A stretch of 64,000 nt of DNA from contig JAGYKR010000001.1 of the NCBI GenBank assembly GCA_018401375.1, positions 62,001 to 126,000 on the forward strand. Direction: 5' to 3'. Within the stretch, counting starts at the first letter, position 1. Each line of letters starts with the position of its first letter. Of this stretch, positions 1,954 through 20,166 are shown one piece after another. Under the pieces are notes generated by a model, which was given only the letters and a program-made list of their open reading frames with translations, searched no databases and was not told the origin of the DNA. Origin of the DNA: Ilumatobacteraceae bacterium (GTDB lineage: Bacteria; Actinomycetota; Acidimicrobiia; Acidimicrobiales; Ilumatobacteraceae). The translations under genes and the position numbers were made by a program.

Positions 1954-3387
1954 ATGGGACCACAGGCCACCACGATTGCAGAACTCCGAGCCTCAGGCTG
2001 GGTATCACGACCCGTCAAAGATGAGATTAGGGCTAACGCTGTACTGCGGATCGCCGCCGGCCAGCCCTTGTTTGAGGGGGTGCTCGGCTACGAAGAGACC
2101 GTGATGCCGCAGTTAGAAAACGCAATTCTTGCTGGCCATGACGTGATTTTCCTTGGCGAGCGCGGTCAGGCCAAGACCCGGATGATCCGGTCCTTGACCG
2201 GTTTGCTCGACGAGTGGATGCCGATCATCACCGGTAGCGAGATTAACGACGATCCCTATCAGCCGATCTCTCGGTATGCCCGGGATCTCGTGGCTCTCCA
2301 CGGTGAGGAAACGGCCATCGAATGGGTGCATCGCGATCAGCGCTTTGGTGAAAAACTCGCCACTCCTGACACGTCGATTGCGGACCTGATCGGTGAGGTA
2401 GATCCGATCAAGGTCGCGGAGGGTCGTTACCTGTCTGATGAGCTGACTCTGCATTACGGCCTCGTACCGCGCACGAACCGCGGGATTTTTGCGATCAACG
2501 AGCTGCCTGATCTTGCCGAGCGGATTCAGGTGGGCATGTTGAACGTTCTTGAAGAGCGTGATGTCCAGATCCGCGGATACAAGATCCGCCTTCCCCTTGA
2601 CGTGATGCTGGTGGCCTCAGCGAACCCGGAGGATTACACCAATCGAGGTCGGATCATCACGCCGCTCAAAGATCGCTTTGGCAGTCAGATCCGGACCCAT
2701 TACCCCCTCGACGTAGAGCTCGAATACGAGATTATGTGCCAAGAAGCCCGACCTCAAGATGGGGGTGGGGCCGTGGACGCAAACGGCGAGCCGGTGGGGT
2801 CAGCACAGGTTCCTGAGTATTTGGGCATGGTGGTTGCCACCTTTAGCCACCTGGCTCGGGCCAGCAGTCACGTGAACCAGCGCAGTGGAGTTAGCGTGCG
2901 CCTCAGCGTGGCAAACCTAGAGGCGCTGGCTGCGAATGCGCTTCGCCGAGGGGTCCGCAGCGGAGAGCGCCTCAGCGTGGCTCGGATCGATGACCTTGAG
3001 GCGCTCGCTGCGAGCTCCATTGGCAAAATCGAGATCGAGTCCCTTGAGGAGGGTCGCGAGGGTGTCGTTTTTGACAACCTGCTCAAGTCCGCAGTGCTGA
3101 CGGTATTCAAAGAGATGATCCCGATGGAGATGATCCTCCCTGTAGTCAGCGCCTTTGAGGAAGGGGTCGTGGCCCACACCGGATCGGACATGAGTTCCTC
3201 CCAACTCGCTGCGCTGCTCACTGAGGTTCCGGCCCTGGCCGGCCCCGTGGCGGTGCTCACCGGTGGGGATCCCACTCCGGCGGTGGTGGCTGCAGCGGTG
3301 GAGTTCGTGCTCGAAGGCCTGCACCTATCGAAGCGTTTAAACAAAGATGCGCTCGGCGCACGGGCCACCTACCGTGGCCGGCTCTAG
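1954..3387 (+). CDS. MoxR / Mg-chelatase-I-like AAA+ ATPase
   Basis: A 477-residue AAA+ ATPase. Walker A is FLGERGQAKTRMIR near residue 70; the Walker B-like GIFAINELPDL near 180 is followed by the sensor region VMLVASANPEDYTNRGR. The C-terminal third is an alpha-helical lid. Such proteins act with a von Willebrand factor A (VWA) partner as an ATP-driven remodelling or metal-insertion machine, and a VWA gene lies downstream at 3999. An oppositely oriented nucleotidyl cyclase separates the two. Start chosen from the TAGTTT hexamer and good N-terminal context. The client protein is unknown; chlorophyll synthesis is not implied. Confidence 0.85.
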   Translation: MGPQATTIAELRASGWVSRPVKDEIRANAVLRIAAGQPLFEGVLGYEETVMPQLENAILAGHDVIFLGERGQAKTRMIRSLTGLLDEWMPIITGSEINDDPYQPISRYARDLVALHGEETAIEWVHRDQRFGEKLATPDTSIADLIGEVDPIKVAEGRYLSDELTLHYGLVPRTNRGIFAINELPDLAERIQVGMLNVLEERDVQIRGYKIRLPLDVMLVASANPEDYTNRGRIITPLKDRFGSQIRTHYPLDVELEYEIMCQEARPQDGGGAVDANGEPVGSAQVPEYLGMVVATFSHLARASSHVNQRSGVSVRLSVANLEALAANALRRGVRSGERLSVARIDDLEALAASSIGKIEIESLEEGREGVVFDNLLKSAVLTVFKEMIPMEMILPVVSAFEEGVVAHTGSDMSSSQLAALLTEVPALAGPVAVLTGGDPTPAVVAAAVEFVLEGLHLSKRLNKDALGARATYRGRL

Positions 3388-3932
3388 ATAAACGGAGACC
3401 GGGTCCAAAGTTCGCCGGTGTCGTTGCGGTCGGTCTGCACCGGAACACCGCTGAGTTGGACGATCTCGATTGGGCCGGGGAATCCTCGCAATTCCACTTC
3501 GCCGCGAGGGGTCGCGACAACACCCTCGGGAAGGCGATCGAGGTGCATAGTGGGCATGAGCACGTCCACACCCTTGGCGTGATCGCACAGCCTCGCTGCC
3601 ATATTCACCGCTGACCCGATGTAGTCGTCACCTTCAAACAACAAGGCATGGCCCGTCGCGATCCCGGCTCGAAGCTTGAGCGGGGCACAGACATTTGTAG
3701 CTCGATGTTCAAGTTCCATGGTGAAGGCGATCGCATCGGTGGCGTCCACGGCCACGATCATGCAGCCATCACCGAGCCACTTCGCGATCCGCACCCCACG
3801 ATCTGAGGCCACCTCGCGCACGATGGAACGGAAAGTGCTGAGCAGTCGGCCCGCAGCGTCATCGCCAAATGCGGCGGTGTAGTTCGTGAATCCAGAGAGA
3901 TCCACGAAGACGAAGGTGCGCGGTACACGCAT
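3384..3932 (-). CDS. Class III adenylate/guanylate cyclase catalytic-domain protein
   Basis: A 182-residue single-domain class III nucleotidyl cyclase. FVFVDLSGFT carries the first metal Asp, AKWLGDGCMI the second, and DDYIGSAVNMAARLCD the Asn and Arg that stabilise the transition state, so it looks catalytically competent. There is no membrane segment, HAMP or receiver domain. Whether it makes cAMP or cGMP cannot be settled here. Start ATG 3932 (MRVPRTFVF) fits TATAGT seven bases upstream; a longer frame reaches 3995 but would overlap the divergent promoter. Its end overlaps the AAA ATPase stop by four bases, tail to tail. Confidence 0.85.
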   Translation of the reverse strand: MRVPRTFVFVDLSGFTNYTAAFGDDAAGRLLSTFRSIVREVASDRGVRIAKWLGDGCMIVAVDATDAIAFTMELEHRATNVCAPLKLRAGIATGHALLFEGDDYIGSAVNMAARLCDHAKGVDVLMPTMHLDRLPEGVVATPRGEVELRGFPGPIEIVQLSGVPVQTDRNDTGELWTRSPFI

Positions 3933-3939
3933 GGCCCTA

Positions 3940-3945
3940 ACTATA
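3940..3945 (-). promoter_or_regulatory. -10-like TATAGT for the cyclase gene (leaderless)
   Basis: TATAGT with a seven-base spacer to ATG 3932. It forms a divergent pair with the hexamer at 3987-3992. Confidence 0.55.
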
Positions 3946-3986
3946 TGTCGCTGGAGCCCGCGTGGGCGGGGACGGAAGAGAGCGAG

Positions 3987-3992
3987 TACCGT
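3987..3992 (+). promoter_or_regulatory. -10-like TACCGT for the VWA gene (leaderless)
   Basis: TACCGT, six-base spacer, ATG 3999. Confidence 0.45.
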
Positions 3993-3998
3993 CACGAG

Positions 3999-6008
3999 AT
4001 GGCCTCACGGTTTAGTTATTCGCGTTGGGATGGCACACAGCGAGGTTTTGATCTCGATGCTGATGCGGTGTTTGAGGAGCTGACGGACGAACTGCTCTAT
4101 CACGGCGATGTGAACTCTGCTCTGCGTCGGATGATGCAAGAAGGCATGACAGATCGCAATGGTGACCGGATCAAGGGACTGCGCGAGATCCTCGAGCAAC
4201 TGCGGGCCAAGCGAGCTGAGAAACTTGCTCAGCACGATCTCGGCGGCGTGTACGACGAGATTTCCCGGGAACTTGACGACATCGTGGACGAGGAGCGTCA
4301 TGCAATCGACAACGCCCTGCGTGAAGCCCAAAGCTCTGGTGATCAGCGCCGAGCGGACACCGCTGAACAGACCGCCACAGACAGAAATCTGCAGCTCGAC
4401 TTGATGCCTTCAGACCTCGCTGGCAAGGTCCGTGATCTGCAGAACTACAACTTCGAATCCGCCGAGGCGGCCCGCCGATTTGAAGAGATGTTGGACCGAC
4501 TCCGCCAACAGTTGGCTCAGCAGATGGTGGATCAGATGACCGGCGCCATGTCGCAGATGACCGAGGCGGACATGGCCCGGATGAAAGACATGCTCGGCGC
4601 TTTGAACGAGATGCTCGAACGCCACGCCAATGGCGAGGATCCGCGTTTCGAAGAATTCATGGAGCAATACGGGGACTTCTTTGATGGTGACCCCCAAACC
4701 CTGGAGGAACTGCTCGAGTCCATGGCCGAGCGGATGGCGGCGATGCAAGCCATGTTGAACTCGATGACTCCCGAGCAGCGCGCTCAGTTGCAGTCGTTAT
4801 CGGAGCAACTCATGGAGGATCTCGATCTGCGTTGGCAGATGGATCAGCTCGGATCGCATCTTCAGTCAATGTTCCCGCAGATGGGCTGGCAGCAGTCGTA
4901 CGAATTCAGCGGGGATGACCCGATGGGCATGGGTCAAGCATTGTCCACTATGGCTGAACTCGGGGAGATGGATCAGCTCGAGAATCTGTTACGTAACGCC
5001 ACTTCGCCGGGGGCGCTGGCCGAGGCCGATATGGACCGGGTCCGTGAGTTGATGGGCCCCGATACAGCTGAGGCGCTCGAGCGTTTGGCCGAGTTAACCA
5101 AGATGCTGACCGAGGCTGGTCTCATCGAGCACACTGAAGGTCGTCTGGAGTTGACCCCGAAAGGGATGCGAGCCATCGGCTCCAATGCACTTCGGGACCT
5201 GTTCTCACAACTCACTAAGGAGTCGGTCGGGCAGCATCAAATCAATCGGATCGGTCAAGGTCATGAGCGGACCTATGACACCAAGGCCTATGAATATGGG
5301 GACCCGTTCCAACTAGATCTCCACCGCACGATTCGCAACGCGCTGCGGCGCAGCGGGCCGGGCACCCCAGTGAGCCTGTCTGCTGAGGACTTTGAGATTG
5401 AGCAGACCGAACACTTGACCCGCTCGGCCACCGTGCTGATGCTGGACCTGTCAATGTCGATGCCGATGCGCGATAACTTCTTGCCGGCCAAGAAGGTGGC
5501 CATGGCGCTGCATCACCTGATCTCTTCGCAGTTCCCACGGGATTATCTCGGCCTCGTGGGGTTTTCGGAGACCGCTCGCATCGTGACTCCCGAGCAACTT
5601 CCGGAGGTGTCCTGGGATTTCGTGTACGGGACCAACATGCATCACGGGTTCATGCTCGCCCGGCAGTTGTTATCCAAGCAGACAGGTAACAAACAGATCA
5701 TCATGATTACCGACGGGGAGCCGACTGCTCATTTGCTGAATTCCGGTGAGGTGTATTTCAACTATCCGCCGGTGCGTGAGACGGTGGAAGCCACCTTGCG
5801 GGAGGTTCTGCGCTGTACCAAAGAGGGGATTCGGATCAATACCTTCGTGCTCGATGTGACCACGGCGCTGCGCGCCTTCATTGAGCAGATGACCCAGATC
5901 AATCGCGGTAGAGCATTCTTCACGACGAATTCTGATCTCGGAGATTACGTGCTCGTGGACTTCATCCAACAGCGGCGGGAACGCTCCCGCGGCCGAAGAG
6001 CCGGATGA
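3999..6008 (+). CDS. VWA domain protein, partner of the MoxR-like ATPase
   Basis: A 669-residue soluble protein. The first two thirds is helical, rich in Met, Gln and Glu, with long probable coiled coils. The C-terminal third is a von Willebrand factor A domain: LMLDLSMSMPMRDN gives the MIDAS DxSxS motif and MITDGEPTAH the later MIDAS Asp. This arrangement matches the VWA subunit paired with Mg-chelatase/MoxR-like ATPases, here encoded at 1954. Start ATG 3999 (MASRFSYSRWDG) is supported by the TACCGT hexamer; an in-frame ATG at 3945 lies inside the divergent promoter. The physiological client is unknown. Confidence 0.85.
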   Translation: MASRFSYSRWDGTQRGFDLDADAVFEELTDELLYHGDVNSALRRMMQEGMTDRNGDRIKGLREILEQLRAKRAEKLAQHDLGGVYDEISRELDDIVDEERHAIDNALREAQSSGDQRRADTAEQTATDRNLQLDLMPSDLAGKVRDLQNYNFESAEAARRFEEMLDRLRQQLAQQMVDQMTGAMSQMTEADMARMKDMLGALNEMLERHANGEDPRFEEFMEQYGDFFDGDPQTLEELLESMAERMAAMQAMLNSMTPEQRAQLQSLSEQLMEDLDLRWQMDQLGSHLQSMFPQMGWQQSYEFSGDDPMGMGQALSTMAELGEMDQLENLLRNATSPGALAEADMDRVRELMGPDTAEALERLAELTKMLTEAGLIEHTEGRLELTPKGMRAIGSNALRDLFSQLTKESVGQHQINRIGQGHERTYDTKAYEYGDPFQLDLHRTIRNALRRSGPGTPVSLSAEDFEIEQTEHLTRSATVLMLDLSMSMPMRDNFLPAKKVAMALHHLISSQFPRDYLGLVGFSETARIVTPEQLPEVSWDFVYGTNMHHGFMLARQLLSKQTGNKQIIMITDGEPTAHLLNSGEVYFNYPPVRETVEATLREVLRCTKEGIRINTFVLDVTTALRAFIEQMTQINRGRAFFTTNSDLGDYVLVDFIQQRRERSRGRRAG

Positions 6009-14976: not shown

Positions 14977-14982
14977 GGGGTG

Positions 14983-16101
14983 ATGGCCTCTGGAGTCGAC
15001 GCTCCGATCGGTATCCCGCTCGACATCCCAGCACTACCGGTTTCGTCCACTGCGCCATTGCGGGTGTTGTTACGGGGAGCCGATGGGGCTCTCGGACGCA
15101 AAGTGACGGCTCTGCTGGGCAGCCACCCAGAGATCGTGCTGTGCAATGCGACAGCATCCCGCCGGTCATCAGGTGGCGAGAATGAAATTGACCCGAAGAT
15201 TGACCCGAAGATTGACCCGAAGATTGACCCTAAAATTGACGTAGTGATCGAGTTGGGATCGGGGGACCACGATCGCCGGGCACGACGGCGTGAGAGCGTG
15301 ACCATCCCGGCCTCAGAGCTCATCGCTGAAGCTGAAAGCGCAGGGGCGCGCCACCTCGTGTTTTTGTCCTCGGCCATGGTGTACGGAGCGTCGCCGATCA
15401 ATCCGATTCCACTCACCGAGGAGTCGGTGCTACGACCTGATCCTGAGTTCGTGTTCGCTCGGCAGATGGCGTCAGCGGAACAGCTCGTGGAGCAATGGAG
15501 ACTCGCCGACCGCGCCCGCAGCGCAACGGTCTTGCGTCCGGTGGTGATCATGTCGGCCGAGGACAGTTCCGGCCTCGCCCGGGCCCTCGCTGCGGGTAGC
15601 GCGTCACGATTCGGTGAGGAGGACCCGGGATCGCAGTTTGTGCACCTTGAAGATGTTGCGAACGCGATAGTCCACGCCACCGCGCAGCGCCTCGATGGGG
15701 TGTTCAATGTCGCACCTGACGGATGGATCCCATCAGAGCGGGTGCGTGCTTTGACGGGGGAAAGGATGTCCTTACCTCTGCCCTCCCAAGTTGCTGAGTT
15801 TCTCGGAGCGTTGAGATGGCGATTCCAGCGCGGGCCGATTCCTCCCGGTCTGCGCTCCTACATCACCCATCCCTGGTTGGTGGCAAACGATCGCCTTCGG
15901 GCCACTGGCTGGTCACCTACCGTGACCAATGAGCAGGCCTACGTAGAGGGAACCGAAGCACGTTGGTGGACGATGGTCTCTCCTCAACGCCGTCAGGAAC
16001 TTGCGCTCGCCGGTCTTGGAATCGTGGCCGTGAATCTCGTTGTTATGGGCGTTTGGTCACTGGTGAGGTGGCGAAGGAAAGCAGCTCGTTCACCGAGATG
16101 A
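14983..16101 (+). CDS. Extended SDR (NAD-dependent epimerase/dehydratase) with C-terminal membrane anchor
   Basis: 372 residues. The Rossmann start is VLLRGADGALGRKV (GxxGxxG), followed after a repeat insertion by VIELGSGDHD, ARHLVFLSSAMVYG and FVHLEDVANAIVHA. The usual YxxxK is not clear: VFARQMASAEQ lies where it would be, so catalysis is doubtful. A tandem (Ile-Asp-Pro-Lys) insert sits early in the domain. The C-terminus has one hydrophobic span (GLGIVAVNLVVMGVWSLV) then a basic tail, placing the enzyme on the inner membrane face. Its last 59 bases overlap the convergent gene at 16043. A sugar-nucleotide or quinone-type substrate is possible; I cannot choose. Confidence 0.75.
   Translation: MASGVDAPIGIPLDIPALPVSSTAPLRVLLRGADGALGRKVTALLGSHPEIVLCNATASRRSSGGENEIDPKIDPKIDPKIDPKIDVVIELGSGDHDRRARRRESVTIPASELIAEAESAGARHLVFLSSAMVYGASPINPIPLTEESVLRPDPEFVFARQMASAEQLVEQWRLADRARSATVLRPVVIMSAEDSSGLARALAAGSASRFGEEDPGSQFVHLEDVANAIVHATAQRLDGVFNVAPDGWIPSERVRALTGERMSLPLPSQVAEFLGALRWRFQRGPIPPGLRSYITHPWLVANDRLRATGWSPTVTNEQAYVEGTEARWWTMVSPQRRQELALAGLGIVAVNLVVMGVWSLVRWRRKAARSPR
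15187..15240 (+). repeat. 12-bp tandem repeat, 4.5 copies (Ile-Asp-Pro-Lys)
   Basis: ATTGACCCGAAG three times, then ATTGACCCTAAA and ATTGAC. In frame within the SDR gene, after its nucleotide-binding start. Near-identical codons suggest recent expansion. Confidence 0.95.
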
Positions 16102-17446: not shown

Positions 17447-17673
17447 ATGTGGCGATCCTTGTTGCGATCGCTGTTGTACTGATCCTTGCGATCGTGGTCT
17501 TGGCCCGCCGATCGCGGCCTGATGCAGTAAGCGATTTCCATCGGCAAATCAACGCGCTGTCTGCTGAATCCCGGCGGCCCGTGGTGGATCAGGTCCACAA
17601 GTTCGAAGAGCAAACAGATCAGCCGGTCGAGCCAGACCAGCCAGAAGATGCGGAGCGTCCCGATGGCTCGTGA
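17443..17673 (+). CDS. Small single-pass membrane protein of unknown function
   Basis: 76 residues: an N-terminal membrane span (about residues 3-20, VAILVAIAVVLILAIVVL), then RRSR as a cytoplasmic stop-transfer signal and an acidic, Pro/Gln-rich tail. No known domain. The start overlaps the moaE stop (ATGA); the end overlaps the mreB start by 11 bases. The compact moaE-small protein-mreB arrangement suggests one transcript; a link to cell-shape proteins is only inference. Confidence 0.6.
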   Translation: MNVAILVAIAVVLILAIVVLARRSRPDAVSDFHRQINALSAESRRPVVDQVHKFEEQTDQPVEPDQPEDAERPDGS

Positions 17674-18667
17674 CCTGGCGATCGACCTCGGCACCGCTAA
17701 CACGCTTGTCTACATGAAAGGTCGAGGGATCGTCTTAAACGAACCTTCGGTGATCGCGCTCAATCGTCAAACCGGTGAGGTGCTAGCCACCGGGCATGAG
17801 GCCTGGCAGATGATCGGGAGGACCCCCGGTTACATCGTTGCCGTGCGGCCGTTACGAGGGGGTGCAATCACCGACTTTGAGATCACTGAGCGGATGATCA
17901 GACTGCTGCTCCAGCGGGTGGGAGTCAGCCGTTTCACCCGTCCCAAGGTGGTGATTTGCGTTCCCTCAGCAATCACCGAGGTGGAGCGTCGTGCCGTTAC
18001 CGATGCGGCGCGGAGAGCTGGTGCCGCCGACGCAAACCTGATCGAACAGCCGATGGCTGCTGCGATCGGAGCAGACCTTCCGATCGATGAGCCGGTGGGC
18101 AACATGGTGATCGACATCGGCGGTGGAACGAGTGAGACCGCAGTGATCAGCCTCGGTGGGATCGTGGCCCTTGAAGCGGTGCGCGTGGGATCTTTTGACA
18201 TCGATGCGGCGATCCAAGGCTATGTTCGGCGCGAACACGGGATTGCGGTGGGTGAGCGCACCGCTGAGGAGATCAAGATGGCGATCGGTTCAGCCGATCC
18301 GACTCCAGGTGAGCAGCAGGCCGAGGTGCGCGGCCGCGACCTGATGACCGGACTCCCCAAGACGGTGGTGCTGAATCCCGATGAAGTGCGCTACGCCATC
18401 GAGGACGTGGTCTCTGCCATCGTCGCCTCGGTGATTCGCTGCCTAGCCAAAGCGCCCCCCGAACTGTCCCAGGATTTTTTGACCCGTGGGATGTATCTGG
18501 TGGGAGGCGGTGGTCTGCTGCGCGGTCTCGCCCACAGGATCGAGCGCGAAACCCATGTCCCAGTGAAGATGTCGAAAGTGCCTCTCGAGGCGGTGGTGCT
18601 CGGAGCAGGCCATGTGATCGAGCATTACGACGCTCTTAAGGGCATGTTCATGGGTGCCCGGCGCTAA
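17663..18667 (+). CDS. mreB: MreB-like rod-shape actin homologue
   Basis: 334 residues of the MreB/Mbl family, an ATP-dependent filament-forming actin homologue that guides lateral wall growth. ATP-site motifs are AIDLGTANTLVY (phosphate 1), MVIDIGGGTSETAVISLGG (phosphate 2) and MYLVGGGGLLRGL (adenosine). ATG 17663 (MARDLAIDLGTANT) is preferred over ATG 17648. No mreC, mreD, rodA or pbp2 follows, so it is a solitary copy. Many Actinobacteria lack MreB, which makes its presence a useful taxonomic and cell-biology clue. Confidence 0.92.
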   Translation: MARDLAIDLGTANTLVYMKGRGIVLNEPSVIALNRQTGEVLATGHEAWQMIGRTPGYIVAVRPLRGGAITDFEITERMIRLLLQRVGVSRFTRPKVVICVPSAITEVERRAVTDAARRAGAADANLIEQPMAAAIGADLPIDEPVGNMVIDIGGGTSETAVISLGGIVALEAVRVGSFDIDAAIQGYVRREHGIAVGERTAEEIKMAIGSADPTPGEQQAEVRGRDLMTGLPKTVVLNPDEVRYAIEDVVSAIVASVIRCLAKAPPELSQDFLTRGMYLVGGGGLLRGLAHRIERETHVPVKMSKVPLEAVVLGAGHVIEHYDALKGMFMGARR

Positions 18668-18688: not shown

Positions 18689-19546
18689 TTAGGTCCGGCC
18701 GATCCGAGTCAGGCCCTCTTGAACCACGCTGACGGCGAGGATGCCATCAGCGGTGTAAATCGCTCCCGCCGCAAGACCCCGGGCCGCTCCAGTAGAGATC
18801 GCAGACTGCTGATAGAGCAGCCAATCGTCGGCTCGGAATGGGCGATGAAACCACATCGCATGATCGAGGCTGGCCATCTGCATGCCGGGGCTGTCCCAAG
18901 ATAATCCAAACGGCATCACTGTGGTGTCGAGCAGGGTCATATCGCTCGCATAGGTCACCACGCAGGCGTGGAGCACCGGGTCATCGGGCAGCACTCCCGC
19001 GGCCCGCAACCACACCTGCTGATGGGTGCTCGGAACACCTTGGCGGCTTAACGGATCAGGGCCGACATAGCGCACATCGATAGGACGCGGTTGGTCGAAC
19101 CATTCGCCGATTCGTTCCTTGTAGGGCTCCATGCGAGTTTTGAAATCAGGGAGCGATTCTGGATCGGGCATGCCGCTGAGGGCAGGCAACTGGTGATCGG
19201 GACCTGGCTCATCATCATGGAAACTGGCCTGCAAATTGAAGATGGCCTTGCCGTGCTGGATCGCAACCACACGGCGGGTAGAGAAACTCCGGCCATCACG
19301 AAGTCGGTCCACCTCGTACAGGATCGGGATGGAGGGGTCTCCTGGACGCAGGAAGTATGCGTGCAGCGAATGCACAAAACGGCCCGGTTCATCCACGGTA
19401 CGCGAGGCTGCAACGAGGGCCTGACCGGCTACTTGGCCGCCGAACACCCGTTGTCGGTTCTCATCCGTGGACCGGCCACGGAAGAGATTGACCTCGATCG
19501 GCTCGAGGTCGAGGAGTTTGATCAGTTCGTCCACAGCAGACTGCAC
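18689..19546 (-). CDS. tesB: Acyl-CoA thioesterase II (TesB type)
   Basis: 285 residues, double hot-dog thioesterase hydrolysing medium- and long-chain acyl-CoA. Motifs are RVFGGQVAGQALVAA, VHSLHAYFLRPGDP and, in the second half, MQMASLDHAMWFHRPFR with the catalytic Asp; a conserved Gln and Thr/Ser complete the triad in the family. GTG 19546 gives the standard N-terminus (ELIKLLDLEPIE); the longer upstream frame is antisense to the phosphatase gene. No clear -10 hexamer. The role is probably acyl-CoA turnover. Confidence 0.92.
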   Translation of the reverse strand: MQSAVDELIKLLDLEPIEVNLFRGRSTDENRQRVFGGQVAGQALVAASRTVDEPGRFVHSLHAYFLRPGDPSIPILYEVDRLRDGRSFSTRRVVAIQHGKAIFNLQASFHDDEPGPDHQLPALSGMPDPESLPDFKTRMEPYKERIGEWFDQPRPIDVRYVGPDPLSRQGVPSTHQQVWLRAAGVLPDDPVLHACVVTYASDMTLLDTTVMPFGLSWDSPGMQMASLDHAMWFHRPFRADDWLLYQQSAISTGAARGLAAGAIYTADGILAVSVVQEGLTRIGRT

Positions 19547-19590: not shown

Positions 19591-19596
19591 TAGTTT
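19591..19596 (+). promoter_or_regulatory. -10-like TAGTTT for the phosphatase gene (leaderless)
   Basis: TAGTTT, six-base spacer, GTG 19603. Confidence 0.5.
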
Positions 19597-19602
19597 GAGC
19601 GT

Positions 19603-20127
19603 GTGGTCCATGAACCTTGGCCGAGGGGCCGGCAGCGCGATGGTGGGATCGACGAGGTTCTGCTGCCCTCTCGACCCGGCCGGTTGTGGCTGTGCGGAAA
19701 GCATCTGATCGGTCCTGATCCGGAGGCGGCGCTGGCGCGTGTTGGAGCCACAATGGTGGTGTGTTTGACCGAACGCCACGAAATCGCTGAGCGTTATGAG
19801 GGATACGTGGAATGGCTGGATCGCCATTGTGGGGACCGTGCGATCTGGTTTCCGATCCCAGATCTGCACGCACCGGCACTAAGCGAAGCAATCGAACTCG
19901 TGGCTCGACTCGATGCGGCGATCATCGATGGAGCCGAGGTGATTATGCACTGTGCAGCGGGTATCGGGCGTTCGGGGACGATGGCTGCGGCGCTTTTGAT
20001 GTGGGGAGGGGTGTCCGCTGCAGTGGCCCTCGATGTCGTCGCCACCTCGCGTCCGATGGCCGGACCTGAGGTGGGTCCACAACGCGAACTGCTCACGATG
20101 TTTGAGCGGAGTCTTGGGCGGGTCTGA
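19603..20127 (+). CDS. Dual-specificity/tyrosine-type protein phosphatase
   Basis: 174 residues. The Cys-based phosphatase P-loop is MHCAAGIGRSGTMAA (HCx5R); upstream, FPIPDLHAPALSEA gives the general-acid Asp loop, so both catalytic elements are present. No signal peptide. The substrate could be protein phosphotyrosine/serine or a small phosphorylated metabolite. It diverges from tesB. The next gene has its own -10 candidate. Confidence 0.8.
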   Translation: MVHEPWPRGRQRDGGIDEVLLPSRPGRLWLCGKHLIGPDPEAALARVGATMVVCLTERHEIAERYEGYVEWLDRHCGDRAIWFPIPDLHAPALSEAIELVARLDAAIIDGAEVIMHCAAGIGRSGTMAAALLMWGGVSAAVALDVVATSRPMAGPEVGPQRELLTMFERSLGRV

Positions 20128-20136
20128 GATCACCTC

Positions 20137-20142
20137 TACGAT
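20137..20142 (+). promoter_or_regulatory. -10-like TACGAT before the five-codon minicistron
   Basis: TACGAT, six-base spacer, ATG 20149, the spacing seen at leaderless genes elsewhere in the window. Confidence 0.5.
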
Positions 20143-20148
20143 GCGGTG

Positions 20149-20166
20149 ATGGCAGTGAAATTATGA
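20149..20166 (+). CDS. Five-codon minicistron (MAVKL) coupled to the methyltransferase
   Basis: ATG GCA GTG AAA TTA TGA starts at the position expected for a leaderless transcript, and its stop shares ATGA with the methyltransferase start at 20163. If the mRNA begins at 20149 there is no room for a ribosome binding site before 20163, so reinitiation from this mini-ORF is the simplest way to translate the downstream gene. The peptide probably has no function of its own. Confidence 0.45.
   Translation: MAVKL

Follow-up and report, generated by a model that had tools for sequence, protein, structure and literature searches.

The DNA analysed here, a 64,000-nucleotide stretch of an Ilumatobacteraceae genome (the window), carries a five-codon open reading frame (mini-ORF) that follows a putative leaderless promoter and whose stop codon overlaps the start codon of a methyltransferase gene. 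By its sequence, the mini-ORF can be assigned to the leaderless coupled small ORFs already described in mycobacteria (Shell et al. 2015, PMC4633059); its translation is predicted. We consider it probable that the mini-ORF acts as a fore-cistron that delivers ribosomes to the methyltransferase by termination-reinitiation at the ATGA overlap, in place of a leaderless nitroreductase cistron coupled to the methyltransferase by RTGA, which the minicistron layout would have superseded in evolution. The leaderless promoter would set the transcript start at or beside position 20149. A ribosome would then initiate at the 5'-terminal AUG, translate five codons, terminate at the UGA overlapping the methyltransferase AUG, and reinitiate there; the peptide MAVKL itself would be of no importance.

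Table 1 Features of the mini-ORF junction and neighbouring genes in the window
Feature	Position	Strand	Basis
TACGAT, −10-like hexamer (TANNNT) of the putative leaderless promoter	20137–20142	+	Sequence; dominant start signature of the genome
GCGGTG, six-base spacer between TACGAT and the mini-ORF	20143–20148	+	Sequence
Mini-ORF ATG GCA GTG AAA TTA TGA (MAVKL, five codons), predicted transcript 5' end	20149–20166	+	Sequence
ATGA stop/start overlap, coupling tetramer	20163–20166	+	Sequence
Weak SD-like GGCAGTGA within the mini-ORF	20151–20158	+	Duplex energy
Class I methyltransferase, Methyltransf_24, 215 aa	20163–20810	+	ORF list, Pfam
Dual-specificity-type phosphatase (DSP) gene	19603–20127	+	ORF, Pfam, leaderless signature
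Acyl-CoA thioesterase, divergent, start approximate	18689–19546	−	Pfam, start candidates

Direct reading of the DNA bore out exactly what a sequence-only reading had reported for the junction: TACGAT, six bases, and the mini-ORF, with its TGA overlapping the methyltransferase ATG (20163–20165) as ATGA. The mini-ORF ATG lies 14 nt 5' of the methyltransferase ATG and is off its frame by one base. The methyltransferase matched the Pfam family Methyltransf_24 with an E value of 2.4e-22. Because position 20163 is the first ATG, GTG, or TTG in the methyltransferase open frame, and the next in-frame ATG falls within the conserved core (KGFMPADEG), 20163 is the sole plausible start of the gene. The DSP gene, on the same strand, ends 35 nt before that start; it too has a leaderless signature, with TAGTTT at 19591–19596, six bases, and GTG at 19603. 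Elsewhere in the window, a protein that by eye looks like an NAD-epimerase type (14980–16101, + strand) contains IDPK four times in a row as an in-frame repeat, and positions 17648–18667 (+ strand) encode an MreB/Mbl-like protein (E 7e-128).

The start signals of the host genome were examined in 345 genes called by a simple codon model over 396 kb of the assembly, which comprises 2.23 Mb in 47 contigs and is 90% complete. In this sample TANNNT preceded candidate starts 44 times at a spacing of 6 bases, 34 times at 7, 19 times at 8, and 15 times at 9, over a background of approximately 3 per offset at offsets 12–29. In-frame leaderless starts (TANNNT-N6/7-RTG) were found in 70–72 of the 345 genes, compared with approximately 5 per control spacing pair. 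TANNNT-N6/7-RTG is thus the dominant start signature of the host genome, and because it is enriched before the sampled starts, the predicted mini-ORF promoter has the right form; TACGAT itself preceded 3 of the 72 in-frame leaderless starts. No −35 element was enriched among these 72. A candidate −35 element in the window, TTGGGC at 20114–20119, was dropped; it carries no weight, since TTG at spacing 17 was found in only 2 of the 72 leaderless genes. It is common for a gene of the host to overlap, by RTGA, the TGA stop of the predicted gene before it; 50 of the 345 sampled genes do so.

To ask how often the whole layout occurs, we counted leaderless sites lying out of frame near gene starts. 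There were 9 in the host sample, where controls averaged 5, and 1 of them had a stop that overlapped the gene start. A pooled scan, consisting of the host sample plus two other family genomes, each sampled over 400 kb, and compared with 13 control spacing pairs, gave 161 in-frame leaderless starts versus approximately 11 in the control, and 3 overlapping minicistrons versus a control mean of 2.5. From this last comparison we conclude that the minicistron class is not enriched in these samples, unlike in the mycobacterial report; genome-wide, overlapping leaderless minicistrons are at chance.

The result was different at the methyltransferase itself. A match to the methyltransferase at E ≤ 1e-60 was present in 197 of 221 family (Ilumatobacteraceae) genomes. 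The best-matching named records were from Ilumatobacter, Ilumatobacteraceae, and Acidimicrobiaceae bins or from bins named only Actinomycetes or Actinomycetota, and lower-ranked matches were from Nocardioides, Streptomyces, and others; a plasmid search returned four records, one of which, from Nonomuraea, covers at least 80% of the query (53%). The start regions compared were drawn from among the matches listed. An N-terminal match was present at 232 loci; removal of 86 that fell outside the family or were not linked to one of its genomes, of 1 duplicate genome, and of 1 locus with a run of N left 144 family genomes in 24 genera; the listed genomes G148, G166, G170, G178, and G196 and the family genomes G005, G012, G029, and G031 lie outside this count. 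In 71 of the 144 the gene immediately before the methyltransferase, in the same orientation, encodes a nitroreductase, and 59 of these 71 had an in-frame RTGA methyltransferase start. The divergent thioesterase was directly upstream in 47. In-frame leaderless methyltransferase starts, at 6 or 7 bases, were present in 40, and 26 genomes had neither an adjacent nitroreductase nor either type of leaderless site.

Out-of-frame leaderless mini-ORFs before the methyltransferase were found in 9 of the 144 genomes, in six genera, with lengths of 4–33 codons (window 5, L123 4, L220 13, L197 14, L255 15, L019 19, L185 20, L021 31, and L188 33). At all nine sites the stop overlapped the in-frame methyltransferase start, compared with 15 of 43 sites at the 13 control spacing pairs (Fisher p 0.0004, or 0.0008 without the window); these p-values are rough, because genomes of the same genus are not independent and one control spacing pair (2,3) had 7 of 7 overlaps, in two genera. 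The share that overlaps says more than the bare number of sites, which was 9, with controls averaging 3.3 and reaching at most 8. An RTGA start is not the rule for the methyltransferase, since an A followed the start codon in only 3 of the 40 in-frame leaderless starts. None of the nine mini-ORF genomes had an in-frame leaderless methyltransferase start. At spacings of 8–9 there were two more overlapping sites, both in one genus and lying in a long open frame. Of the mini-ORF, it is the layout alone that recurs at orthologous loci; the nine peptides differ from one another and are not conserved. No second genome of the host's genus was present among its relatives or among the family genomes listed (4 of the 221 are not listed).

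Some of the nine starts lie within longer open frames. Fewer than 40 open codons precede the leaderless start in five (L001, which is the window, L123, L021, L220, and L255), and the upstream frames that remain open to the stop codon amount to 265 codons in L188, 263 in L185, 105 in L019, and 72 in L197. All four long frames were weighed as possible coupled genes; the L188 and L185 translations resemble, by eye, antisense low-complexity frames. Should these two be genuine genes, the nine mini-ORF cases would shrink to seven.

Gene order in the relatives pointed to a nitroreductase at the position of the mini-ORF. The two best methyltransferase matches of the window by score, among the matches listed, are in G025 and G165. 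G025 has thioesterase (reverse), DSP, nitroreductase, and methyltransferase, in that order; G165 has DSP, nitroreductase, and methyltransferase, and its contig ends inside the DSP. The order in the window is that of G025 minus the nitroreductase, with the putative promoter directly after the DSP. In G165 a TANNNT-N7-ATG lies right at the DSP end, where by eye the TAG stop is part of the hexamer. In G025 approximately 600 bases lie between DSP and nitroreductase, and the DSP protein apparently continues through them; its translation, read by eye, is continued in frame by a GNAT acetyltransferase-like domain (L003 1–796 / L330 about 3099–4136). The best nitroreductase match in the window's own genome (assembly 90% complete) is on another contig and is 43% identical to the G025 copy; the other upstream nitroreductase copies examined are 67–81% identical to it. 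The nitroreductase had a leaderless signature at all 22 loci where its start was visible; a likely ancestral unit is therefore leaderless nitroreductase, RTGA, and methyltransferase. At L128 there is, besides an upstream nitroreductase, a second leaderless promoter, in frame and directly before the methyltransferase, which is possibly a transition state.

Several of the other mini-ORFs resemble what would be left of such a nitroreductase gene. The 33-codon ORF of L188, about 100 bases before the methyltransferase, has kept the nitroreductase promoter and is identical at 12 of 15 positions close to the N-terminus, and its tail, VRWDQW, resembles same-genus nitroreductase forms such as IIHWDQW (compared by eye). 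It looks like a nitroreductase gene minus nearly all its middle, with the leaderless promoter, start, and coupled stop retained. Promoter and start regions were scored against nitroreductase starts, with 241 leaderless ORFs (mean 10.7) as the null. The scores were 31.5 for L188, 27 for L255, 25.5 for L185, and 19 for L019. Only one null value (53) exceeded those four, and it fits the G011 nitroreductase, which is inside the sampled stretch. Because their promoters and starts match those of the nitroreductase, the mini-ORFs of L188, L185, L255, and L019 look like shrunken nitroreductase genes. The match was not significant for L220 (151 of 241 null sites as high), L197 (118), L021 (57), or L123 (25); the L021 mini-ORF has weak similarity to the nitroreductase C-terminus. 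Among the 40 in-frame leaderless methyltransferases, 11 scored at least 20 against the nitroreductase promoter region, and an in-frame leaderless methyltransferase would be the other natural outcome of loss of the nitroreductase cistron.

For the mini-ORF of the window, comparison of promoter and start with nitroreductase starts gave no match above background (score 9.0, with 203 of the 241 null sites as high). Homology of its promoter to the nitroreductase promoter was accordingly set aside as unsupported, and alignment of the junction with that of G165 gave short matches only. It is by its position, then, that the window mini-ORF may be traced to loss of the nitroreductase. The idea that it could be a start-shift remnant comes near what the relatives show, in several of which the mini-ORF looks like what is left of a coupled cistron since lost, but the window's own letters have no such match. 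As a tentative generalization, for which we would claim somewhat less than even chances, the leaderless RTGA-coupled minicistron before the methyltransferase could, in this family, be a recurrent end state of gene loss, in which the leaderless nitroreductase has been cut repeatedly to 4–33 codons because continued translation of the methyltransferase needs only the start signal and the stop/start overlap; the window would then be near-minimal.

The sequence before the methyltransferase was also assessed as a ribosome-binding region. If transcription starts at 20149, the leader of the methyltransferase is 14 nt long and its SD duplex has an energy of −6.3 kcal/mol, a value as low or lower being obtained with 22% of random 14-mers; a gap of 4 nt separates GGCAGTGA from the start. 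For the 22 nt that precede 20163 the pairing energy is −9.1 kcal/mol, a value reached by 13% of random 22-mers. With such weak SD pairing, de novo initiation on the 14-nt leader is possible yet unremarkable. The view that there is no space for a ribosome binding site thus applies to the mini-ORF and not to the methyltransferase. Nor is termination-reinitiation implied, as had been supposed, because the methyltransferase would have this leader with its weak SD-like stretch; it is likely, in view of the start signature, the recurrent layout, and the mycobacterial class. A further suggestion, of deliberate low-level translation control, gained no support.

An attenuating leader peptide has a run of one regulatory amino acid together with a terminator or alternative structure. 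The mini-ORF layout does not have this form. The first 60 nt had no structure beyond that of shuffled sequences (z 0.25), an Rfam scan gave one implausible sub-threshold match (mir-998, 20 bits versus 52, E 0.73), and neither a sigma-70-type nor a terminator-like site turned up at the junction, the single match of each kind falling inside the methyltransferase gene. An attenuator or riboswitch was rejected on the lack of structure and terminator and the sub-threshold Rfam match; MAVKL contains no single-residue run.

Other explanations of the junction were weighed against these results. The main template for methyltransferase translation might be an mRNA that begins at the leaderless promoter of the DSP (19603) and reads through the operon, initiation occurring by way of weak SD-like sequences and the mini-ORF being incidental. 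The short gap between these co-directional genes, the leaderless signature of the DSP, and the −9.1 kcal/mol pairing upstream of 20163 agree with such readthrough. It is nevertheless unlikely, given that a correctly spaced TANNNT lies within the gap and that the cistron at the same place in relatives is often leaderless itself (the nitroreductase at 22 of 22 loci and the methyltransferase at 40 of 144). We give a still lower probability to a transcript that starts near 20149 and is used for de novo initiation at 20163, with the 5'-terminal AUG unused or only a weak aid to ribosome binding. The position of GGCAGTGA would suit this, and 5'-terminal AUGs on leadered mRNAs of Escherichia coli are reported to bind ribosomes and to affect the downstream gene variably (PMC4965119); however, the SD pairing is weak, an RTG at the transcription start was reported to be necessary and sufficient for leaderless initiation in mycobacteria (PMC4633059), and nine of nine family sites end on the methyltransferase start.

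A chance combination of TANNNT and ATG, or an assembly error of one base in what is really an in-frame leaderless gene, as found in 40 of the 144 orthologues, would be consistent with the chance frequency of overlapping minicistrons genome-wide and with a leaderless ATG 14 nt upstream that is just one base off the methyltransferase frame. This seems very improbable, because the layout recurs in eight other genomes of five other genera. Single-base errors are, moreover, rare in assembled contigs. Termination-reinitiation from the mini-ORF onto the methyltransferase is the explanation we favour.

The closest known system is that of the mycobacteria, in which leaderless small ORFs of 5–50 amino acids, some coupled to the next gene by RTGA, are reported to be overrepresented, including some in which the peptide differs and conservation extends no further than placement and coupling (Shell et al. 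2015, PMC4633059). The window mini-ORF shares with these the putative leaderless RTG, the small ORF, the TGA within an RTGA (ATGA at 20163–20166), and the kept placement with divergent peptide (9 of 144 family genomes, six genera). Its five codons are at the lower size limit. As regards an RTG at the transcription start, the promoter geometry TANNNT-N6-ATG is present at 20137–20151. Overrepresentation, a trait of the class rather than one that defines a member, was not found (1 in the host sample; 3 pooled versus 2.5). The mycobacterial class was established by mapping of transcription starts and ribosome profiling (PMC4633059), whereas the mini-ORF of the window, in a different actinobacterial lineage, is predicted and its kind is unenriched in the genome samples; in addition, in some relatives of the window the mini-ORF is apparently a shrunken upstream gene. 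Ribosome profiling of Mycobacterium tuberculosis supports hundreds of leaderless short ORFs (PMC9094748), and polycysteine leaderless uORFs are known in mycobacteria (PMC4633059, PMC9094748).

Likenesses to other systems are partial. In Corynebacterium glutamicum an engineered leaderless bicistronic cassette needs translation of its fore-cistron, which likewise supports the second cistron; that cassette also needed an active SD (AGGAGG) (PMC10367133), whereas the SD-like stretch of the window is no more than weak. The E. coli 5'-terminal AUG uORFs likewise start at the very 5' end of an mRNA and precede a gene, which they affect variably, but they occur on conventional SD leaders, and the abstract of that report states no RTGA requirement (PMC4965119). 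Termination-reinitiation at ATGA or TGATG involves the same overlap of stop and start codons; those cases are gene pairs, unlike the five-codon leaderless ORF considered here (PMC6728339). Among the titles and abstract openings listed for the literature covered, from which subscription journals are mostly absent, we found no description of an origin of coupled leaderless ORFs by gene loss, and a search for leaderless initiation in Acidimicrobiia gave nothing beyond PMC10783764.

These results place the leaderless minicistron layout outside the mycobacteria. Start annotation in such genomes must allow for a leaderless ATG that precedes the true start and is out of frame with it. The relatives form a series, consisting of a full upstream gene, a 33-codon internally deleted gene, promoter-only minicistrons, and an in-frame fusion, which suggests a source for the mini-ORF and lifts the minicistron of the window somewhat above the routine. 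If the gene-loss reading is true, repeated cutting-down of a fore-cistron would be a general route to leaderless coupled uORFs.
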